DNA from: Henriciella sp.
GTDB taxonomy: Bacteria; Pseudomonadota; Alphaproteobacteria; Caulobacterales; Hyphomonadaceae
Direction of reading: 5' to 3'
NCBI RefSeq assembly: GCF_029937755.1
Contig: NZ_JAPYPG010000001.1
Coordinates: 434,001-498,000, forward strand
DNA: 64,000 nucleotides
Each line of letters begins with the position of its first letter. Position 1 is the first letter of the stretch. Shown piece after piece: positions 8,116 through 18,889 of the stretch. The notes under the pieces are model-generated. The model had not been told where the DNA came from and did no database searches. It was given only the letters and a program-made list of their open reading frames with translations. Made by a program: the position numbers and the translations under genes.

Positions 8116-9899
8116 ACCGGCTTTTTTATCGTCTGAAAGACATCTTCGATGCCTTGCCCTACCCCGTCTTCGCCAAAGACAACAAGCATCGCTGGATCTA
8201 CGGAAACCAGGCCTTTTCTGATCTGCTCGGACGAGACGACTTTATCGGGCTGGATGACAGCGCAATTTTCTCGCCGGAACAGGTTGAAGTCTTCTGGGCA
8301 GAGGATGAACGCGTGCTGATGGGACTGGAAAGTCTCAATGAAGAACAGATCGGGGAGGACATGTTCGCGCTGACGAAGAAGGTCCCCCTGACATTCCCGG
8401 ACGGATCGGCTGGCCTTGTCGGGATCATTATCGATGCCATCAAAATGCCGGAAGGCGCGACTGGAGAAGATTTCGAGCCCTCCCTGCTCGACTATGCCAA
8501 TTCACGAGCCGACATGCTGCAAAAGCGGCTCAATGAGGCGGTGGCGGAGAAGGAGAAAGCCGTTTATCTGGCCCAGACGGATCTTGCGACCGGCCTGCTC
8601 AACCGGGTCGGCTTCGATGCCCACCTGCAGAAGCAGATCAGATATGCCGAAGAGACCGGTGAACGATTCGGCATGGCCCTGATCGACATCGATCACTTCA
8701 AGCGGGTCAATGACCAGTTTGGTCACGCCGCTGGCGACATTGTCGTCAATGTCATCGCGAAACGCCTGGCGAAGGTTCCTGGCGTGGTAGGGCTGGCGCG
8801 CATGGCCGGTGACGAGTTTGCTCTCATATCGAGCCCGGTAAACGTAGATACCGAGACGCTGCGCACTCGGATCGACAAGGTCTGCAAATATGTATTCCGG
8901 CCGGTATCGGTGGGTGACAATCAGATCGCACTGTCAGGCTCTGCTGGTGTCTGCTTCTACCCGGACCATGGCGACTCTGCGGCATCTCTCATGAACTGCG
9001 CCGATCATGCCCTGCTTGCCGCCAAACACGGAGGGCGGAACCAGGCGCGCATTTTCGACGAGGGAATCCAGCAACAATGGCGCCGACGCCGCCAGATCGA
9101 GGACAAGCTTCCAATTGCCCTGGAAGAGCGGCACATCGTGCCCCACTATCAACCCATTCTCTCAAGCACCCAGCGGGCACCGCTGGGTGTGGAAGTGCTG
9201 GCACGCTGGAATGATGCCGAGCTTGGCCATATCGGTCCGGACGAGTTTATTCCGATTGCAAGCGAGCTCGGCCTGCTGAGCCGGCTGGACCGTATTGTTC
9301 TGGATCAGGCCATAAAAGACTCACGTCCCTGGATAGAGCGCGGTGACATCGACTTCATTTCAGTCAATGTCTCGCCAATCGACATCGTCTCGCGCGGCTA
9401 CGCCACTGACCTGCTGAAACGCCTGCGCGCAAATGCATTCGAGCCCTCCAACCTCCACCTGGAGATTCTCGAATCTGCGATCGTCGAGGATGTCGACTCA
9501 GCGCGGCGCAATCTTGAGCGTCTGCGTGAAGACGGCATCCAGATCGCCCTGGACGACTATGGCACAGGCTTCTCCAATCTTCGCGCCCTGCTAGACATGC
9601 CGCTGGACAAGCTCAAGATCGACAAGTCGCTCGTGGCCGGTATCGATTATGATGACAAGGTGCTGGACCTGGTGATCTCCATCGTCCAGTTCGGCCGCTC
9701 GCTCGAACTCGACCTGGTCGCCGAAGGCGTTGAGACAGCGGCCCAGTCCGCCTTCATCGAGGGCGCTGGCTGTCCGCAGATGCAAGGGTATTTCTTCGCA
9801 CGGGCCATGCCTGCTCATGACGCTGGTGTATGGCTCACGGCACAAAGGACAACGTCCCCCGAGCTGCAGCAATCGCGCTTTGCAGACGACGCAGCGTAA
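8112..9899 (+). CDS. PAS-GGDEF-EAL cyclic-di-GMP protein
   Basis: This 595-residue cytoplasmic protein has a PAS-like domain at about 1-115 (DALPYPVFAKDNKHRWIYGN), a helical linker, a GGDEF domain at about 150-315 and an EAL domain at about 335-585. The cyclase signature reads AGDEF (232-236), a variant found in some active cyclases. The phosphodiesterase signature reads EVL (361-363) in EVLARW, followed by intact DDYGTGFSNL, KIDKSL and VAEGVET, so the EAL half looks active. The start is TTG 8112, overlapping the GAF gene stop. It makes and/or degrades cyclic-di-GMP; phosphodiesterase is the safer prediction. Confidence 0.9.
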   Translation: MNRLFYRLKDIFDALPYPVFAKDNKHRWIYGNQAFSDLLGRDDFIGLDDSAIFSPEQVEVFWAEDERVLMGLESLNEEQIGEDMFALTKKVPLTFPDGSAGLVGIIIDAIKMPEGATGEDFEPSLLDYANSRADMLQKRLNEAVAEKEKAVYLAQTDLATGLLNRVGFDAHLQKQIRYAEETGERFGMALIDIDHFKRVNDQFGHAAGDIVVNVIAKRLAKVPGVVGLARMAGDEFALISSPVNVDTETLRTRIDKVCKYVFRPVSVGDNQIALSGSAGVCFYPDHGDSAASLMNCADHALLAAKHGGRNQARIFDEGIQQQWRRRRQIEDKLPIALEERHIVPHYQPILSSTQRAPLGVEVLARWNDAELGHIGPDEFIPIASELGLLSRLDRIVLDQAIKDSRPWIERGDIDFISVNVSPIDIVSRGYATDLLKRLRANAFEPSNLHLEILESAIVEDVDSARRNLERLREDGIQIALDDYGTGFSNLRALLDMPLDKLKIDKSLVAGIDYDDKVLDLVISIVQFGRSLELDLVAEGVETAAQSAFIEGAGCPQMQGYFFARAMPAHDAGVWLTAQRTTSPELQQSRFADDAA

Positions 9900-9916
9900 G
9901 TCTTCCGAAGACAAGA

Positions 9917-10567
9917 CTATCCTGAAGCACCCGTCCCTCGCACCAGCGGGACGAAAGCCACGCCACCCTTGCTCTGGGTTTCCCATCGGGTCTCTGCGAT
10001 CCGGGTCAGGCATTTGAGTTCCTGCCTGTTGCCCTGACCTGGAACCGGGATGACAAGGCGCCCGCCAATGCTCAGCTGATCGCACAACGGTTCGGGCACA
10101 GGCCCAGCCGCCGCAACAATAATTGCATCAAACGGTGCTGCTTCCGGCCAGCCCAATGTGCCATCGCCGGTCCGGCAGGCGACCTGCTCATATCCCTGGG
10201 CCTCAAGGACAGCCTCGGCCCGCCTGGCAAGAATGTCATGTCGTTCTATCGCGAAAACCCTGGCCCCCATCTCAGCCAGGATCGCGGCCGAGTAGCCTGA
10301 TCCCAAACCTACGTCGAGCACCCGGTCGCCCGGATCGATACCGGCAAGTTCAGCCATCAACGCCACAATATAAGGCTGCGACATAGTCTGACCTTCGCCA
10401 ATCGGCAGCGGACCATCGGCATAGGCGTTATCGCGATGGCCTTCCGGCACGAACGCTTCGCGTGCGACCTTACTCATAGCCTCCAGCACACGCATGTCCG
10501 TGATGCCGCGCGCCTTCAGCTGGTCTTCGACCATTCGCTGACGCAGGCTCTCGAACTCTCTGGACAT
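9917..10567 (-). CDS. pcm: Protein-L-isoaspartate O-methyltransferase
   Basis: This 216-residue enzyme methylates L-isoaspartyl residues with SAM, starting repair of aged proteins. It shows the PCMT pattern: MVEDQLKARGITD at the start, FVPEGHRDNAYAD, the SAM motif RVLDVGLGSGYSAAILAEMG, then the post-motif FDAIIVAAAGPVPEPL and the sheet GGRLVIPVPG. The length matches the family. It sits tail to tail with the GGDEF-EAL gene, with 17 bp between the stops. Confidence 0.92.
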   Translation of the reverse strand: MSREFESLRQRMVEDQLKARGITDMRVLEAMSKVAREAFVPEGHRDNAYADGPLPIGEGQTMSQPYIVALMAELAGIDPGDRVLDVGLGSGYSAAILAEMGARVFAIERHDILARRAEAVLEAQGYEQVACRTGDGTLGWPEAAPFDAIIVAAAGPVPEPLCDQLSIGGRLVIPVPGQGNRQELKCLTRIAETRWETQSKGGVAFVPLVRGTGASG

Positions 10568-11545: not shown

Positions 11546-12310
11546 TCAGGTTTCGCGATAGCTCTCATAGAAAGCGATCGCCGCAGCGTTCGAGACGTTG
11601 AGACTCTCCATGCCGGGCGCCATCGGGATGCGGGCGAGCGTTGCACACGCCTTCGCGACCGCCGGCCTCAGGCCGGAGCCTTCCGCGCCCATCACAAACG
11701 CAACCCGTCCAGCGCCGCAGACAGCGTCGGCAACTGTTTCGGTCCCTTCTCCCGCCAGACCAACCGTATGGTAGCCGGCCTCGGCAAGATGGCCGAGGGC
11801 GCGCGCGATGTTGACCACGCGTATTTCCGGAACCGTCTCGATGGCGCCGGCCGCAGCCTTGGCGGCAACACCTGTGACCGGCGGGGTATGACGCGTCTGC
11901 AGGATCAGTCCGCCCACACCAAAAGCAGCGGCTGAGCGAAAAATGGCACCCAGATTGTGTGGATCGGTAACCTGATCGAGAACACAGAGTCGCAGCGGTG
12001 CTTCAGGCCCGGCAATGACATCCTCTAGCGCTGCGGGCTCCAGCGGGGCTGTTTTGACAGCCAGTCCCTGATGCACGGCGCCGGGCGGAAGCAGTTTGTC
12101 GAGCGCCTTCGAATCCATGATCTCAAAATGTGAAAAGCCGGTCCGGCGCGCAGCGTTCTCAGTCGCCACGCAGCGCACGATCTGCCGGTTTTCATTAGCA
12201 ATCGCCGCTTCGACAGCATGCTGGCCCCACAGCCAGACCGGGGCATCCGGGTCAGCTGCAGGCGCTGCTGCAAATCGGCGTTTCTCATGGTTGCGTGGAA
12301 TAGGCTTCAT
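11546..12310 (-). CDS. rlmB: 23S rRNA 2'-O-methyltransferase, RlmB/TrmH (SPOUT) family
   Basis: The N-terminal substrate-binding domain begins with VWLWGQHAVEAAIANENR. The SPOUT catalytic domain follows, with motif 1 QVTDPHNLGAIFRSAAAFG, motif 2 VAFVMGAEGSGLR and motif 3 MESLNVSNAAAIAFYE, which forms the trefoil knot. RlmB methylates the 2'-OH of G2251 in the ribosomal P loop; other TrmH-type targets cannot be excluded. The start is set at ATG 12310 (MKPIPRNHEKRRF), giving 254 residues; ATG 12358 would add 16 residues. It diverges from tRNA-Tyr, a common neighbour of this gene in alphaproteobacteria. Confidence 0.88.
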   Translation of the reverse strand: MKPIPRNHEKRRFAAAPAADPDAPVWLWGQHAVEAAIANENRQIVRCVATENAARRTGFSHFEIMDSKALDKLLPPGAVHQGLAVKTAPLEPAALEDVIAGPEAPLRLCVLDQVTDPHNLGAIFRSAAAFGVGGLILQTRHTPPVTGVAAKAAAGAIETVPEIRVVNIARALGHLAEAGYHTVGLAGEGTETVADAVCGAGRVAFVMGAEGSGLRPAVAKACATLARIPMAPGMESLNVSNAAAIAFYESYRET

Positions 12311-12408
12311 CCCTATAAAGCGCGCTTCGGAAGCGCCGGTCACTGCTATTGCAGTCATTTGGCGTCATGGTCCGGCGGCGTCAATTCCATGTCGCAGGAC
12401 AACCCTCT

Positions 12409-12493
12409 GGAGGGGTGGCCGAGTGGTTAAAGGCAGCAGACTGTAAATCTGCCCGCATAGCGTACACAGGTTCGAATCCTGTCCCCTCCACCA
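12409..12493 (+). tRNA. tRNA-Tyr(GTA)
   Basis: This is a class II tRNA: acceptor GGAGGGG/CCCCTCC, anticodon stem GCAGA/TCTGC with loop CTGTAAA (anticodon GTA), a long variable arm, T arm ACAGG-TTCGAAT-CCTGT, discriminator A and encoded CCA (12491-12493). Confidence 0.95.
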
Positions 12494-12824
12494 TTTTCCC
12501 TTCACACTATCGACAAAAGCCCGCTTGCTGATGGTCGCCGCCTAGCCGTTTTGTGTGCTGGGCGAAGACGCAGCGTTCCTGTTTGGGCACAGAAAGGCTG
12601 CAACCAGGTCTGGGCTGCGCGCAGTTTGACTCCTCTGCGTCAGGGCCTACGCTTACGCCCATATGCTTTTTCGCATTCCATACCTGCCCGGACATAAGTG
12701 CGGGCGAGGACCAGTTGTGCTTTGCGCCGGGCATTCATCGCGATGCCCTAGCGCAAGATTGAATCCTGCTGGGCCTGATTAATCCGCTGTTCCATAACGT
12801 TTTAACGTGACCCATGGAGGTCCA
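12494..12824. other. Gene-free stretch between tRNA-Tyr and the ATP-grasp gene
   Basis: In these 331 bases no open frame looks coding on either strand: the two short ones present are Cys/Pro-rich and have no ribosome binding site. No repeat of the tRNA 3' end or other attachment site was seen. The last 40 bases must carry the leader of the ATP-grasp gene, ending in the strong GGAGG at 12816-12820; the dyad ACGTTTTAACGT lies at about 12798-12809. Confidence 0.5.
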
Positions 12825-14051
12825 ATGACTGATTACAATCCCGATAAAGGCTATATCGCCCTGCTAGGCTGGAGCCTGAGTGCCATCGACGCGATGGAGA
12901 AATTTGACCGGCACTATCTCATCGTCGCACCAAGCTGGGCAAAGGAATATGCAGAAGCGCACGATATTCCATTTCTTGCCTGGGATTTTGAACGTCTGAA
13001 CGAGAAGTCTTTTGAAATTGCGCAGACGCTGAAGGAAATGGGCATCGACGTGGCTGTGCCGCTGTTCGAGGAAACCGTTGAATGGGCCGGCGCGATCAAT
13101 AGCGTGCTGCTCGATAATCCGCGCCTGCTGGGCCAGTCCATGCTGCTCCGGGACAAATCACTGATGAAGCGCAGGGCCCAGCTTGGCGGCATCCGCGTCG
13201 GCATCTTCGAGGAAGCCCATGACCGCGCCGATGTCGTACGCTTTCTGCGCCGGGTGAACCAGACGCTGCTGAAGCTCGACGGCGACACGAACGACCCGAT
13301 TCATTTCAAGGCGTTTGACCTGGCGGGCTGCATGGGCCACCGGGTCATCCGCACAGCCGATGATGTCGATTCCATCCCGGATGAGGATTTCCCGGCGCTG
13401 ATGGAAAGCCATCTGGACGGGTGGGAGTTCGCGGCCGAAGCATGGATCCATGACGGCAAGATCCGTTTTCTGAATATCTCCGAATATGTGCGGCTCGGCT
13501 ACTCGGTCTTTGTGCCGGCAAGCCCCGAACTCGAAGCCTTGCGCGACAAGGTCGAGGAAGAGATAAAGAAGCTCATCAAGGCCTTCGACATCAAGTTCGG
13601 CTTCATTCACCCGGAATACTTCATCGCGAACGATGATGTCATGTATTTCGGCGAAGTCGCCTACCGCCCGCCCGGCTTCAAGGTTTTCGAACTGCTTGAG
13701 CGCGTCTACGGCTTCAATGCCTATCAGGGCATGGTCATGATGTTCGACCCGAAAACGACGGAAGAGGAAATCGAAGCGTTCTTCCCGACCCCGGTGAAGG
13801 ATGCCGATGGCCATGCGGGCTGTTTCGGCGTCTACCCGCGCAACCGCGTCGTCTCGAAGCTTTCCATCCCGGAAGAAACCGAGAATCACCCCTATTTCGA
13901 ATGGCACGAACTGTCGGAGCCGATGGAGAGCAAGGTTGCCAAGCGGTCAGCCTTCGGCAACCATTGGGGGCTGGTCTATTTCCACGGCGAGGACGCAGAG
14001 ACGCTGCGTGACCTTCTAAAGGCCCAGGAAAAGCTGGACTTTTACGTCTAG
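12825..14051 (+). CDS. ATP-grasp ligase family protein
   Basis: This 408-residue cytoplasmic protein has the order of an ATP-grasp carboxylate-amine ligase. There is a pre-ATP-grasp Rossmann-like part (1-105), the entry DKSLMKRRAQLGGIRV at about 116-131, a lysine strand IHFKAFDLAG, the SHLDGWEFAAEAWIHDG strand for nucleotide binding, and the metal-site strand YFGEVAYRPPG near 275-285 (compare E-x-N-x-R-x-x-G of PurK/carnosine synthase-like enzymes). Such enzymes make acyl-phosphates and join them to amines, giving peptides or amides. The start is ATG 12825, 4 bases after GGAGG. The next gene, 78 bp on, has a papain-like part, so a shared pathway is plausible. The substrates are unknown. Confidence 0.8.
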   Translation: MTDYNPDKGYIALLGWSLSAIDAMEKFDRHYLIVAPSWAKEYAEAHDIPFLAWDFERLNEKSFEIAQTLKEMGIDVAVPLFEETVEWAGAINSVLLDNPRLLGQSMLLRDKSLMKRRAQLGGIRVGIFEEAHDRADVVRFLRRVNQTLLKLDGDTNDPIHFKAFDLAGCMGHRVIRTADDVDSIPDEDFPALMESHLDGWEFAAEAWIHDGKIRFLNISEYVRLGYSVFVPASPELEALRDKVEEEIKKLIKAFDIKFGFIHPEYFIANDDVMYFGEVAYRPPGFKVFELLERVYGFNAYQGMVMMFDPKTTEEEIEAFFPTPVKDADGHAGCFGVYPRNRVVSKLSIPEETENHPYFEWHELSEPMESKVAKRSAFGNHWGLVYFHGEDAETLRDLLKAQEKLDFYV

Positions 14052-14129
14052 CGGTTCTGGTCCGTAGTCAGGCAGGCTTCTCTCCGTTAGCCTTGATCGA
14101 CAGTTAAAGAATCGAAGGGGCTTCCTACG

Positions 14130-16115
14130 GTGAGTGAGGCAAACCCAACTCAGCCAGAGAGTGGCGCCGATCCCGTGCTGCTGAAACGCCTCGATGCCGC
14201 TATCGGGCGGCTTCGCAATACGAGCGACAAGCTCAAGATGAGGCAGCAGCAACCGGCAATTGAACAGGCAGAGCGCTTGCTCACGTCACCGGGCGGAGTG
14301 CACGCCTGTCTGGCACGCATCGTCTCCATGGATGAGGCAGGGATCTTCGTCGGTACGGACTGGAATCATCCCGCTCGTCTCAAGCCCGTCCTCGTCCGGC
14401 ATACACTGGAGTCAGGCGATGCCACGGCGCTCGTGCTGGAAACGCTCAGCGAACTGCGCTTTCTTGCGATCGCTGGCGGGCAGTATGCTCATGCCGAGGT
14501 GTCTTCCGAGGAAGCGCACCACTTCCTCGCACAGGTCCTCGGCCTTAACCTGGAGCGTCTCTTTGGCTCCCAGACGGAAGTCGCACGCTTTCAGGATCCG
14601 GCCTGGACGGAAGCACTCGCCCAGCTTTTCCGCTGCCTGGCCGAAGAGATTGGGTATGGCAGGATATTCGACGCTGTCATCAGCGAGATATGGCGGATTC
14701 TGGCGCAACGGCCGATCCAGACCGACCGGCTGAAAGCGATGGTGGCACAGCTGTCGCTTTGGTCCCGAGAAAGCTCAAACGAACAGTCTCCATCTGGCTG
14801 GGGCGCCGATCGGCTCGTCAGCGCCCTGTTTGGTCCGACCAATGAATGCCGCGAAGACCCCGGTGCCGACGCCTATGAGGCGAAGCTTTCAACACTCGAC
14901 GAGAAGGCCTTGGCACAGGAAGCCGCGGGTATGGCCCGTGCAATGCACGATACCGGCCTGGTCTCCGCATATCACGCTGTGCTCCTTCGTCATCTCGTGG
15001 CATTCAGGACAGATCTCGTTCCGGACTGTCTCGGCCTTTCATCGACAGGTCGCGAGAACTACAACTCCTTTGCCGAGCTCACGCACGCGCTTGTCGACAA
15101 AGCCATTCATGTGGAAACCGCCCAATCGATCTATGGTCTTTCGCTGCTGCTCGAGCGGGGCATCTTGCACCTTCCGCCGACGGCCCCGGCCTTATGGCGT
15201 CAGATACAACTGAAGCTGTCGCCGGAGTCCGCTCAGCGGCTGATCGACAGTTTCGGCAACACGCCTGAACCGGAAGCAAGGCTTCTGGCTGGGGTGATCA
15301 GTATTCTGGGCCAGCCGCTTGGTGTCGGGCAAGGCAATAACCCGACGTGTCAGGCAGCGCGCGCTATCGCGATGTGGTCTTACACCGATCCGGACTATTT
15401 GCTGCAGCTTGTGGCCTGGGCGGCTCGCGATAATGAGATCCGCATGTCGTTCGAGGGAGAGTCGATTTCATCGGGCAACCTGAATGCCGGCCTTGCCAAG
15501 AGTGGTCTGGTAGATGTCGATCCCGTCTCCGCAATTCTCGTCCCGCACCTCGACCGGGTCTACATGGAAATGGGCCGCCTTTGCGCTGGACGAGAAGGCG
15601 ATCCACACCGATGGATTAACCCGGAAATGCATGGCTGGTGGGTCGGGCGGCAATTCAACATCGTGGTCGATGTGCCAACCGGCAAGCTTACGGACATTGA
15701 GGGCTTCGTGCAGCGCTTCTATGCCGCCTTCCACCCCGATCACAATGGCGGCCAGCCTCTTATTCACCCCAGTCCGGCTGGAATTGCCGTGACCGACAGC
15801 GCTGCGCGATTCGTCGGCTGGCATGCAATCGCGATCGTTCGTGTCTCTCGCGACCCTTCGGGCGAGGTGCGCGTCTACTTCTTCAACCCCAACAATGACA
15901 GCGGGCAGGATTGGGGCGACGGAATCAAGGTTTCGACATCCGGCAACGGCGAGTTTTACGGTGAGTCTTCTGTTCCCATCGCCGACTTTACGTCACGCCT
16001 GTATATCTTCCATTCCGATCCGCTGGAGCAAACGGCGAGCCAGCCTGTCTCCAGTGACGAGGTCGAAAAGGTCCGCAGCAAGATCGCTTCGAGCTGGGGG
16101 CAGGATCGACTCTAG
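14130..16115 (+). CDS. Unknown 661-residue protein with a C-terminal papain-like cysteine peptidase pattern
   Basis: No family is recognised over the whole length, and there is no signal peptide. Residues 1-380 look all-helical. The C-terminal third shows a papain-type layout: Q401 six residues before C407 (GQGNNPTCQAARAIAMW, compare Gln19/Cys25 of papain), H565 after a strand (FVGWHAIAIVRV), and N586 in FFNPNNDSGQDWG, at the place of papain Asn175. W502-W503 and a G-rich end resemble the second half of the fold. It may cleave or transfer a peptide or amide bond. It starts at GTG 14130, 78 bp after the ATP-grasp gene on the same strand, and is probably co-transcribed. The catalytic assignment rests only on the motif reading. 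Confidence 0.6.
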   Translation: MSEANPTQPESGADPVLLKRLDAAIGRLRNTSDKLKMRQQQPAIEQAERLLTSPGGVHACLARIVSMDEAGIFVGTDWNHPARLKPVLVRHTLESGDATALVLETLSELRFLAIAGGQYAHAEVSSEEAHHFLAQVLGLNLERLFGSQTEVARFQDPAWTEALAQLFRCLAEEIGYGRIFDAVISEIWRILAQRPIQTDRLKAMVAQLSLWSRESSNEQSPSGWGADRLVSALFGPTNECREDPGADAYEAKLSTLDEKALAQEAAGMARAMHDTGLVSAYHAVLLRHLVAFRTDLVPDCLGLSSTGRENYNSFAELTHALVDKAIHVETAQSIYGLSLLLERGILHLPPTAPALWRQIQLKLSPESAQRLIDSFGNTPEPEARLLAGVISILGQPLGVGQGNNPTCQAARAIAMWSYTDPDYLLQLVAWAARDNEIRMSFEGESISSGNLNAGLAKSGLVDVDPVSAILVPHLDRVYMEMGRLCAGREGDPHRWINPEMHGWWVGRQFNIVVDVPTGKLTDIEGFVQRFYAAFHPDHNGGQPLIHPSPAGIAVTDSAARFVGWHAIAIVRVSRDPSGEVRVYFFNPNNDSGQDWGDGIKVSTSGNGEFYGESSVPIADFTSRLYIFHSDPLEQTASQPVSSDEVEKVRSKIASSWGQDRL

Positions 16116-16254
16116 TTCGCGATGAGTAGAGGCGCCTGTCCAGAAGCCGCCCAACCTCCAGCCAGCCAGGACGTTGATTGAGAAAGCTACTGCCATCGGG
16201 CGCGCTCATCACTTGCATCACACGCAATGACAAAGTATCTCCACCGGCTCCGGT

Positions 16255-16328
16255 GCGGATATAGCACAATGGTAGTGCAGCAGCCTTCCAAGCTGAGGAT
16301 GCGGGTTCGATTCCCGCTATCCGCTCCA
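16255..16328 (+). tRNA. tRNA-Gly(TCC)
   Basis: The cloverleaf has acceptor GCGGATA/TATCCGC, D stem GCAC/GTGC, anticodon loop CTTCCAA (anticodon TCC), T arm GCGGG-TTCGATT-CCCGC and an encoded CCA. The top anticodon-stem pair is G-A, as in the tRNA-Gly at 3306. It reads GGA and GGG codons. Confidence 0.95.
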
Positions 16329-16478
16329 ACTCTTCCCTAAAAGCAAGGCCTTGCCGCACGACTGGCGGAGTACGCGCAAGATCTCTCCTGACGGCCCCCT
16401 TCAGGCTGGCGGATTGTTGCTCAAACGCCACGATTTCAGCGAAACCATCGATTGACTCCGAAGGGCCTTCACGCCTAT

Positions 16479-16510
16479 TTCAACATGTGTTGAACTCAAC
16501 ACTTGTTGAA
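16479..16510. promoter_or_regulatory. Two abutting TetR-type operators upstream of the TonB receptor
   Basis: TTCAACA (16479-16485) TG TGTTGAA (16488-16494) is followed directly by CTCAACA (16495-16501) CT TGTTGAA (16504-16510). These are 16-bp dyads with a 2-bp centre, 40-71 bp before the receptor ATG. The same dyad occurs once more at 19732-19747, between the tetR and hydrolase genes. Confidence 0.75.
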
Positions 16511-16549
16511 AAGATACGGGCTCAACGCCCGAGGGAGGATAATTCAGCC

Positions 16550-18889
16550 ATGCGTACGTCAACAAACCGACTCCTGCTCGCCGCCTTGTGCGCGAGCGCC
16601 ATGACACCGATTGTTCCAGCTTTTGCCCAGGACTCCTCTGAAGATGGCGAAACTGAAACCGCGCGCCGCTTCGACGCGGTAACCGTTACCGCTCAACGGC
16701 GCGAAGAAAATCTCGTCGATGTGCCGATCTCGGTCTCGGCTTTCGACGGTGACCTGCTCGCCGACCTCGGCGTGGTTGACCTGACGGAAATTGCCAAGAT
16801 CTCTCCAAACGTCACTCTGGAAGTCTCGCGCGGGACGAACACCACGCTGACCGCTTTCATTCGCGGTGTAGGCCAGCAGGACCCGGTTGCCGGCTTCGAG
16901 GCCGGTGTGGGTATCTATGTCGATGATGTCTATCTCAATCGCCCACAAGGCGCCGTCCTTGATGTCTATGATGTCGAGCGTGTCGAAGTGCTGCGCGGCC
17001 CTCAGGGTACGCTCTATGGTCGCAACACGATCGGCGGCGCGATCAAGTATGTCACGAAGGGGCTGTCGGACGATCCGACCTATGAGGTGAACCTCCGGGC
17101 TGGCAGCTACAACCAGCTCGACGGTGTCGTAACGACATCCCTGCCGGTGACCGACGATTTCCGCGTTGGCGCGGCTGTGGCGAGCTTTAACCGTGACGGC
17201 TTTGGCGAAAACATCATCACGGGCGCGGAAAACTATAACAAGAAGCTCTTCGGCGCCCGCCTCTCGGCAGAGTATGATGTCACAGACGATTTCCAGCTGC
17301 GCGCAGCGGCTGACTATTCTCTGGACAAATCCAATGCCCGCCAGGGCCACCGGCTTATTCCTGACCAGTTGCCTCCATTCGACTACCCGGTTCTTGGCGA
17401 TGTCTACGATACGCGCGCCGGTCTCGACGTGGTCGAGCAGCGTGTGGAAGCCTATGGCGGCTCGCTGATTGGCGAATGGGACGTGAATGCCAACTGGACG
17501 GTAAAGAACATCCTCGCCTATCGCGAAGACGAGAGCACCTCGCCGATCGACTTCGACTCCCTTCCGGAAGCCGACCTCGACGTACCGGCCATCTACGAGA
17601 ACGACCAGTTCTCCGAGGAGCTTCAGTTCCTCTATTCAGGTGACCGGCTCGAAGGCCTCCTGGGCTTCTACTATCTCGACGCCAATGCCTCGACCGTGTT
17701 CGACGTACTTCTGGCCACAACCGGCGACGTTCTGAGCCTGCCGGGCCTCAACGCCCAGACCTTCGGCGACGTGAATACCGAAACCTGGTCGATCTTCGGC
17801 GACTTCACCTATGACCTGACAGACAAGTTCTCGGTTTCGCTGGGTGGCCGCTATACGGAAGACACGCGTAAATCGACTGTCCTGAGGCGCACCTATATTG
17901 GCGGTTTCTCCGAGTTCTTCGGTGGCAACGCCGTTCCGATTGCTGTCACGTCCGACTTCCAGGGGGAAGCGACTTTCGATGACTTCAGCCCGCGTGCGTC
18001 GGTCAGCTACCACGTGACGCCGGAATCCAACCTTTACGCAACCTATTCGCAGGGCTTCAAAGGCGGCTCGTTCGACCCGCGTGGCCAGACAACCGCGGCG
18101 CCGGATCTCGATCAGGACGGCACGGTTTCCGATGCCGAGATCTACCAGTTCATGCAGTTCGACCCGGAAGAGGTGGACTCCTATGAAATTGGTTACAAGG
18201 CGAGCCAGTTCGGTGGTGATCTGAGCTACTCCATCGCGACCTTCTACTCCGACTACAAGGACGTGCAGGTCCCGGGCTCGATCGGTGTCGATACCGATGG
18301 CGACGGCGTGAACGACACTTTCAGTGGCGTCACGACCAATGCCGGCGCGGCCACGATCTGGGGCGTCGAGTTCGAAGGCAACGCGACCGTTGCCGAGGAC
18401 ATGATCAACGCAGGTGACTATGTGAACTTTGGCTGGTCGGTCGGCTATCTCGACGCCGAGTATGACGAGTTCATCGACGCCTTCGGCAACAATGTCGCCG
18501 ACGAACGCGTCATCCAGAACACGCCGGACTGGACCGCAAATGGCCGGGTCGCCTACGACACGCCGTTCGCTGGCGGTAACCTGTTGATGAACACCCAGCT
18601 GTCCTATCGCGGCGACTCCAGCCAGTTCGAGGCTCCTAACCCGTTCCTGGATCAGGAAGCCTTTACGCTGTGGGATGCGAGCGTTCGCTGGGAGACCGGG
18701 GACGGCCGCTGGGGCTTCAGCCTGAACGGCAAGAACCTCACCGACGAAGAGTATATCGTCGCCGGCTACAACTTTGTGACCGTGAACCAGGACGGCACAT
18801 TCACGCCGACGCTTGGTCTCGAGGGCACACTAACCGCCTTCTACGGTGCTCCGCGCACGGTAACTGTCGGTATCGACTACACCTACTGA
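16550..18889 (+). CDS. TonB-dependent outer-membrane receptor
   Basis: This 779-residue receptor has a signal peptide (1-26, ending in PAFA-Q), a TonB-box-like FDAVTVTAQ, a plug domain (about 50-170, with RGPQGTLYGRNTIGGAI) and a beta barrel ending in the aromatic VGIDYTY. It imports a substrate across the outer membrane using TonB energy; the type is the broad Caulobacterales/Sphingomonad group that often handles plant or algal aromatics, sugars or steroids. Two Asp-rich loops, DLDQDGTVSDAE and DTDGDGVND, look calcium-binding. The start is ATG 16550 after GGAGG; a longer in-frame opening is rejected. The tandem operators just upstream suggest TetR repression until substrate is present. Confidence 0.93.
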   Translation: MRTSTNRLLLAALCASAMTPIVPAFAQDSSEDGETETARRFDAVTVTAQRREENLVDVPISVSAFDGDLLADLGVVDLTEIAKISPNVTLEVSRGTNTTLTAFIRGVGQQDPVAGFEAGVGIYVDDVYLNRPQGAVLDVYDVERVEVLRGPQGTLYGRNTIGGAIKYVTKGLSDDPTYEVNLRAGSYNQLDGVVTTSLPVTDDFRVGAAVASFNRDGFGENIITGAENYNKKLFGARLSAEYDVTDDFQLRAAADYSLDKSNARQGHRLIPDQLPPFDYPVLGDVYDTRAGLDVVEQRVEAYGGSLIGEWDVNANWTVKNILAYREDESTSPIDFDSLPEADLDVPAIYENDQFSEELQFLYSGDRLEGLLGFYYLDANASTVFDVLLATTGDVLSLPGLNAQTFGDVNTETWSIFGDFTYDLTDKFSVSLGGRYTEDTRKSTVLRRTYIGGFSEFFGGNAVPIAVTSDFQGEATFDDFSPRASVSYHVTPESNLYATYSQGFKGGSFDPRGQTTAAPDLDQDGTVSDAEIYQFMQFDPEEVDSYEIGYKASQFGGDLSYSIATFYSDYKDVQVPGSIGVDTDGDGVNDTFSGVTTNAGAATIWGVEFEGNATVAEDMINAGDYVNFGWSVGYLDAEYDEFIDAFGNNVADERVIQNTPDWTANGRVAYDTPFAGGNLLMNTQLSYRGDSSQFEAPNPFLDQEAFTLWDASVRWETGDGRWGFSLNGKNLTDEEYIVAGYNFVTVNQDGTFTPTLGLEGTLTAFYGAPRTVTVGIDYTY

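Follow-up and report, generated by a model that had tools for sequence, protein, structure and literature searches.

A mobile gene pair of Henriciella and other bacteria links an ATP-grasp-like gene to a conserved, putatively papain-like protein family

The window, the whole stretch of 64,000 nucleotides of Henriciella sp. DNA analysed here, contains a two-gene module in which ATPG, an ATP-grasp-like ligase gene, lies upstream of FAM, a gene for a 661-residue protein. ATPG looks like an obligate partner of FAM, the pair changes genomic site as a unit, and the two genes are taken here to be one functional unit. An earlier note on this DNA had described FAM as a papain-like protein from its Gln, Cys, His and Asn residues; this account stood in part, as detailed below, but missed the ATP-grasp-like partner gene, and the mobile module is a stronger finding than the residue pattern. 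We propose that the module serves amide-bond chemistry, with an ATP-grasp enzyme and a papain-like FAM that would act on an amide or acyl group, and we give this reading a probability of roughly 45%. The features of the window on which the analysis rests are as follows.

12409..12493, + strand: tRNA-Tyr, left edge of the site of the pair
12807..14051, + strand: ATPG, ATP-grasp-like ligase, partner gene upstream of FAM (PF13535-like; adjacency; co-occurrence)
14130..16115, + strand: FAM, gene of the finding (open reading frame with a GTG start, 661 amino acids)
14130..15266, + strand: N-terminal helical part of FAM, residues 1-379 (AlphaFold helices; 20 of the 74 invariant columns)
15267..16112, + strand: C-terminal putative papain-like domain of FAM, residues 380-661 (54 of 282 columns invariant)
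15330..15332, + strand: codon of Gln401, putative oxyanion-hole Gln (invariant, 147 of 147 relatives)
15348..15350, + strand: codon of Cys407, putative nucleophile (147 of 147 relatives; sole invariant one of six Cys)
15822..15824, + strand: codon of His565, putative catalytic His (invariant, 147 of 147 relatives)
15885..15887, + strand: codon of Asn586 in FFNPNND, putative third catalytic residue (invariant, 147 of 147 relatives)
16255..16328, + strand: tRNA-Gly, right edge of the site of the pair

ATPG more likely starts at 12825, where an in-frame ATG is closely preceded by GGAG. By profile match, ATPG would belong to the ATP-grasp superfamily: all 15 members scanned matched PF13535 at E 0.01 (best E, 1.7e-6), the window copy scoring 18.2 bits and thus staying below the gathering cut-off of 27. 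The structures nearest to an ATPG profile were 4dim (E 0.0006) and then two L-amino-acid ligases, 3vot (E 0.004) and 4wd3 (E 0.005). The weak match to 3vot is the likeness to the L-amino-acid ligases (BL00235, ATP-grasp), from which ATPG differs in that the E-values are marginal and it keeps E-V-A-Y-R, where E-x-N-x-R is usual.

The association of the two genes was assessed in 80 related loci, the best 80 of at least 572 FAM relatives. An ATPG match was found in 79 of these (in pieces only in L022, L023 and L036), and a full-length ATPG lay directly upstream of FAM in 75, with a median gap of 43 bp. In L064 the match is downstream of FAM, and within the locus L061, from a Halomonas metagenome-assembled genome, only a 45-residue ATPG remnant (9801-9935) lies ahead of FAM, which makes this a possible case of FAM lacking its neighbour. 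When whole genomes were searched for each gene (thresholds, E 0.001 for FAM and E 1e-30 for ATPG), the same 9 of 61 genomes of close relatives carried both genes, as did the same 8 of 274 gammaproteobacterial genomes, and in neither set did any genome carry one gene alone; one of the nine (G005) has FAM split in two pieces over two contigs. The FAM and ATPG protein distances correlated over 75 loci (r = 0.863, a value reached by none of 500 permutations), a correlation for much of which common descent would account.

The pair also moves. From tRNA-Tyr to tRNA-Gly the window measures 3761 bases, the space being filled by the pair, and the same interval spans 47-334 bases in 12 of the 13 genus members examined out of 28 others; the thirteenth, L284, has no tRNA-Gly within 1500 bases after tRNA-Tyr. 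In the eight other pair-bearing relatives, the pair is on another contig or hundreds of kilobases off. Among those whose neighbours were examined, it lies near argB-like and HAD-like genes in L016, L018 and L274 (translations read by eye), and beside other genes in L015 and L017. A search for bounding repeats in 12300-16500 found only short imperfect ones. Since FAM and ATPG are found together in the genomes searched and relocate as a unit, they very likely share a function and handle the same molecule. After the tRNA-Gly, and outside the module, an open reading frame at 16487-18889 resembles a TonB-dependent receptor when its translation is read by eye.

An origin of the pair from a phage, virus or plasmid was considered and rejected: phage records held no FAM relative, 75 viral stretches matched a pattern with none confirmed as a FAM relative, and plasmid records held a single relative, on a 1.83 Mb Halomonas replicon. 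As a separate observation, the ATPG of the window and that of Henriciella aquimarina (L017) share 96% identity, whereas the two FAM proteins share only 76%. The median distances elsewhere are 0.16 for ATPG and 0.31 for FAM, that is, about half as large for ATPG. Either recombination between FAM and ATPG or a fast-evolving FAM would explain the contrast with L017.

At least 596 stretches in 84,980 scanned species genomes matched the search pattern, and at least 572 of them encode a FAM relative. The best 80 relatives come from Proteobacteria (Henriciella, Halomonas and its kin, Marinobacter, Methylophaga, other gammaproteobacteria and Rhodospirillales) and from Actinomycetota (Nocardia, Amycolatopsis, Pseudonocardia, Saccharopolyspora, Streptomyces and Mycolicibacter), and the pair is known from Alphaproteobacteria, Gammaproteobacteria and Actinomycetota. 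Within the genus of the window, FAM proteins are 65-76% identical to the window protein (70-76% in named Henriciella), and the nine FAM-bearing genomes among the 61 close relatives all belong to this genus. FAM was found in 4 of 385 genomes sampled across the class and in 13 of 398 sampled across the phylum, two of the latter at E 0.02-0.07 only, and in 8 of 274 genomes from the class of G498; the family is rare when genomes are sampled evenly. In a quick, midpoint-rooted tree search, 11 actinomycete rows formed one clade (98) joined to Oceanimonas (99), and both fell inside a 69-row group (100) in which the named non-actinomycete rows are gammaproteobacterial. This nesting suggests, as far as such a tree can tell, a transfer between phyla.

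In the genus of G498, whose FAM rows the tree places with named Marinobacter, FAM is present in 53 of 61 genomes, often in several copies, reaching five full copies and a fragment. G498 itself has five full FAM copies and a fragment versus two ATPG copies; because some genomes hold more FAM than ATPG copies in this way, FAM is suggested to carry the specificity. FAM paralogues often have no adjacent ATPG, so FAM may act on other molecules. Broken or fragmentary copies were seen in several Marinobacter-like genomes (for example, G498, G808, G822, G832, G833, G850 and G851), mostly beside intact ones, indicating that paralogues are gained and lost. In Streptomyces daqingensis (G794, L071), a further, partial FAM match lies on the opposite strand (C13:210430-210789), some 8.4 kb from the first. 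A second type of ATPG, 68-70% identical to that of the window and with an N-terminal extension, was also observed and is possibly part of a second complete system. Its positions are given below.

L123, 8297-9604, and L126, 8806-10113: second-type ATPG, divergent from the FAM paralogue
L064, 5451-6758: second-type ATPG, after FAM on the same strand
L059, 20283-21629: second-type ATPG, at the edge of the locus

None of the model libraries searched here covers the FAM family. The window protein matched no Pfam, NCBIfam, PHROGs or PADLOC model even at E 10, and no PDB entry by sequence. Profiles built from 11 full-length sequences, or from 111 C-terminal ones, gave PDB matches only at E 0.23 or above, and Pfam scans of 11 and of 111 members returned marginal matches, the best to DUF2891 (E 0.025, 8 members), with one of the 111 touching Propeptide_C1 (E 0.27). 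The profile search against peptidase groups that had been proposed for the C-terminal part likewise gave no family match, and in the Pfam scan of the window protein no known papain-like (clan CA) family was matched.

The numbering of Q401, C407, H565 and N586 is correct in the 661-residue reading frame, and Q401 does lie exactly six residues before C407. The statement in the earlier note that this order and spacing define papain-fold peptidases was too strong. We searched for Q-x5-C followed by H and then N within set distance ranges, with the open reading frames of the 64-kb window and of the related loci as background; the pattern occurred in 338 of 2000 shuffles of the FAM protein, in 3 of 56 picked open reading frames of the window (FAM counted) and in 42 of 820 other open reading frames of at least 250 codons in the 80 related loci. 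Taken from the single FAM sequence, the pattern is weak and not significant. It gains weight because all four residues are conserved: in the alignment of homologues that had been proposed as a check, each of the 147 distinct full-length relatives from the retrieved loci has all four (counted besides the window gene and with paralogues included). Of these relatives, 99 are less than 90% identical to one another, and the most distant is 42% identical to the window protein. All 147 therefore have a conserved Cys, His and third polar residue in papain-like order, with a Gln ahead of the Cys.

Conservation is not confined to these positions, since 74 of 661 FAM columns are invariant, 54 of them within the last 282 residues. 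Invariance alone cannot single out the four residues because so many C-terminal columns share it; H473, D475, H493, N497, E499, E442, E608 and E612 are invariant as well. This bears on the explanation that the C-terminal domain is not papain-like, the four residues being coincidental and C407 catalytic or structural in another way. With 54 of 282 columns invariant, any pattern read out of the sequence has a fair chance of being so, the frequency of the pattern in shuffled proteins points the same way, and H473, D475, H493, E499 and E442 offer other candidates for an active site; however, C407 is the only invariant cysteine, and Gln sits at -6 from it.

The structural model bears on the same choice. 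AlphaFold, given 11 close sequences, modelled residues of about 11-140 and 281-320 confidently (pLDDT 77-95 over the block 11-140), and all of these are helical, so that the helical N-terminal part that the earlier note had predicted is seen in the model. From about residue 350 on, pLDDT is mostly below 50 and the model is unreliable in the C-terminal domain. In this weak part, again at pLDDT mostly below 50, C407 is adjacent to the start of a helix at 405, a strand (561-566) contains H565, and a second strand (580-585) is followed by N586. Such secondary structure is what a papain-like domain would show, although it comes from a low-pLDDT region; in the papain-like superfamily, the Cys is described as lying at the N-terminal end of the core helix in every case (PMC10318531). 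The helix at C407 and the strands at H565 and before N586, being in papain-like order in the weak model, count against the alternative that the domain has another fold.

Profile-profile comparison (hhalign) with three papain-like sets gave noise: 56, 23 and 13 of 60 column-shuffled versions scored as high as FAM against C39_2 (7 sequences from 9 loci), transglutaminase (25 from 30) and CHAP (18 from 22), respectively. This result would favour a domain that is not papain-like, but the test has little power because two of the three positive controls, same-fold comparisons among these sets, also stayed at noise level and the sets are shallow. The third control, C39 against CHAP, was slightly above noise (probability 2.6%, E 0.018), and the negative control, ATPG, gave scores similar to the others. 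The families C58 and C70, known mainly for injected effectors, were left out of these yardsticks. Weighing both sides, we regard a C-terminal domain of another kind as unlikely. The invariance of the four residues and their papain-like order in the weak model argue for the papain-like domain of the earlier note, and the searches that matched no family or PDB profile argue against it; in our judgement, FAM probably has a papain-like fold in its C-terminal domain. The accompanying reading of this part as a peptidase or transferase is partly supported and, on the sequence evidence, plausible.

In the proposed amide-bond module, ATPG would activate a carboxylate with ATP and join it to an amine. 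C407 of FAM would attack an amide or acyl group, forming a thioester, with H565 as the base, N586 orienting H565 and Q401 in the oxyanion hole; FAM would then hydrolyse the amide or acyl group or pass the acyl to another amine. Binding of the partner or the substrate would fall to the helical N-terminal part. The sequence, its conservation and the co-occurrence, adjacency and joint movement of the genes are observed; we infer both chemistries, the papain-like fold, a complex of FAM with ATPG, and a cytosolic place, reading by eye having found no hydrophobic leader. Several observations speak against this module: the C-terminal domain has a low-confidence model and no convincing sequence match to a papain-like family, the window ATPG scores below the Pfam cut-off, L061 keeps only an ATPG remnant ahead of FAM, no neighbour besides ATPG is general, and FAM paralogues often stand without ATPG. 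Sequence alone does not distinguish hydrolysis from transfer or amine donation.

Among the closest known systems is glutathionylspermidine synthetase/amidase, in which one protein combines an ATP-grasp synthetase with a papain-like amidase of the CHAP type that cleaves the product of the synthetase. There, as in the proposed module, ligase and Cys amidase act as a unit on an amide, and a polyamine hint exists here too. The system differs in being fused, whereas FAM and ATPG are two separate genes; neither matches CHAP or GSP_synth, the partner here is ATP-grasp_4-like, and a helical part of about 380 residues is attached to FAM. CHAP is placed in the papain-like superfamily (PMC10318531). The C39 and phytochelatin synthase (C83) families share with FAM a Q-x5-C followed by H and then D or N. 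Two C39_2 sequences (L208 and L211) also have Q six residues before C and, by eye, a similar H...NP spacing, but with Asp-Pro where FAM has Asn586, and the FAM score against the C39 profile is at noise level.

Another known system would imply a different division of labour. BtrH in butirosin synthesis transfers an acyl group and has an ATP-grasp partner. FAM might similarly be an acyl or amide transferase, with ATPG making an activated or carrier-bound acyl group that the FAM Cys passes to an acceptor. The joint presence and absence of the two genes fits two synthesis steps at least as well as synthesis followed by breakdown. C39 and C70 are named as close relatives of the BtrH_N proteins (PMC10318531), and BtrH-family papain-like transacylases occur in operons, several of them also with ATP-grasp genes (PMC2922099); what the two systems would share is the link between a Cys transferase of papain-like type and an ATP-grasp ligase. 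FAM has no match to PF14399, however, and forms a two-gene module without a general neighbour, unlike the biosynthetic cluster of BtrH. The neighbour clustering covered open reading frames of at least 100 residues, so that a carrier-protein gene may lie among the shorter ones. We consider a transferase of this type rather unlikely.

A further possibility is that FAM acts as an amidotransferase subunit in which C407 frees an amine or ammonia, handed to ATPG for the carboxylate. Carbamoyl-phosphate synthetase, an ATP-grasp enzyme fed by a separate amidase, is a precedent, the joint presence or absence of the genes fits, and the surplus of FAM over ATPG in G498 would fit interchangeable donors; but the known amidotransferase glutaminases have, to our knowledge, other folds, and we hold this to be improbable. 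Very improbable, in our estimation, is a role of FAM as an ordinary protease or in defence: peptidases dominate the description of the superfamily (PMC10318531), and the pair is patchy and mobile, but neither FAM nor ATPG matched any family in PADLOC-DB, no phage or confirmed viral relative was found, and an ATP-grasp-like gene accompanies FAM in every FAM genome of the 9-of-61 and 8-of-274 sets.

For the amide-bond module, hints at the substrate were sought among the neighbours, and none besides ATPG was general among the loci examined (open reading frames of at least about 90-100 residues). Of 111 loci with a FAM reading frame, three (L129, L196 and L199) have a PF00850 deacetylase gene that touches FAM, convergently and on the opposite strand in L129; the L199 protein gives better scores with HDAC6 and HDAH than with polyamine deacetylases, and three more deacetylase genes (L039, L060 and L091) are located 2.6-4.6 kb away on the opposite strand. 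In L269 (G117), an Amidoligase_2 gene follows FAM by about 1.8 kb; at 8612-9601 of this locus, just downstream of FAM and before the Amidoligase_2 gene, we also observed a C39-like peptidase with TPR repeats. GCS2-like and AstE-like genes follow FAM paralogues in L119, L124 and L181, with a GCS2-like gene further off in L183; relative to the Pfam cut-offs, the GCS2 matches are just above and the AstE matches just below.

A putrescine- or polyamine-type transporter ends 4 bp before the FAM paralogues in L128 and L184, the gaps in L125 and L180 being 193 and 1139 bp, with an opposite-strand gene in between in L180; these four cases are one orthologous set from one genus. The transporter binding protein is nearest to a polyamine transport protein (E 2.5e-124) and PotF (E 6e-109), and PotG-like matches occurred in 26 of 112 loci, with many other ABC ATPases among them. 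The amide-related neighbours suggest that the module handles amine amides, polyamines being the leading candidate, but they occur in few lineages, each through one or a few events; polyamine conjugates are our best guess for the substrate, on thin evidence. Polyamine specificity was not adopted as the main claim, given that the transporter is confined to one genus and the touching deacetylases to 3 of 111 loci, and that the one in L199 resembles HDAC6 and HDAH more than polyamine deacetylases.

Other neighbours were discarded. Fatty-acid desaturase, ketosynthase-like, MBL and S15 peptidase genes, and MEMO-like and radical-SAM-like genes named by eye, were scattered; a relative of the MBL protein recurs in L271 (45%). 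Genes recurring in about 30 of 80 loci (a TlyA-like gene, by eye, in 32) look like shared Halomonadaceae gene order.

A literature search, with most subscription papers outside its reach, found no paper on the FAM-ATPG pair. As far as can be told, its proposed chemistry is a variation on known chemistry and no new principle. FAM is nevertheless a family of at least 572 matching stretches that has no family model, yet is highly conserved and tied to an ATP-grasp-like enzyme. In a wider proposal, which we advance tentatively and with some doubt, an ATP-grasp ligase and a new papain-like family would form an obligate system of two separate enzymes that makes and remodels an amide metabolite, possibly a conjugate of a polyamine or compatible solute, in many halophilic gammaproteobacteria, some alphaproteobacteria and actinomycetes, and that has been passed between phyla. 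The pairing of the genes and the two candidate active sites make the proposal directly testable, and identifying the product would uncover either a novel small molecule in halophiles and actinomycetes or a novel combination of ATP-grasp and papain-like enzymes.
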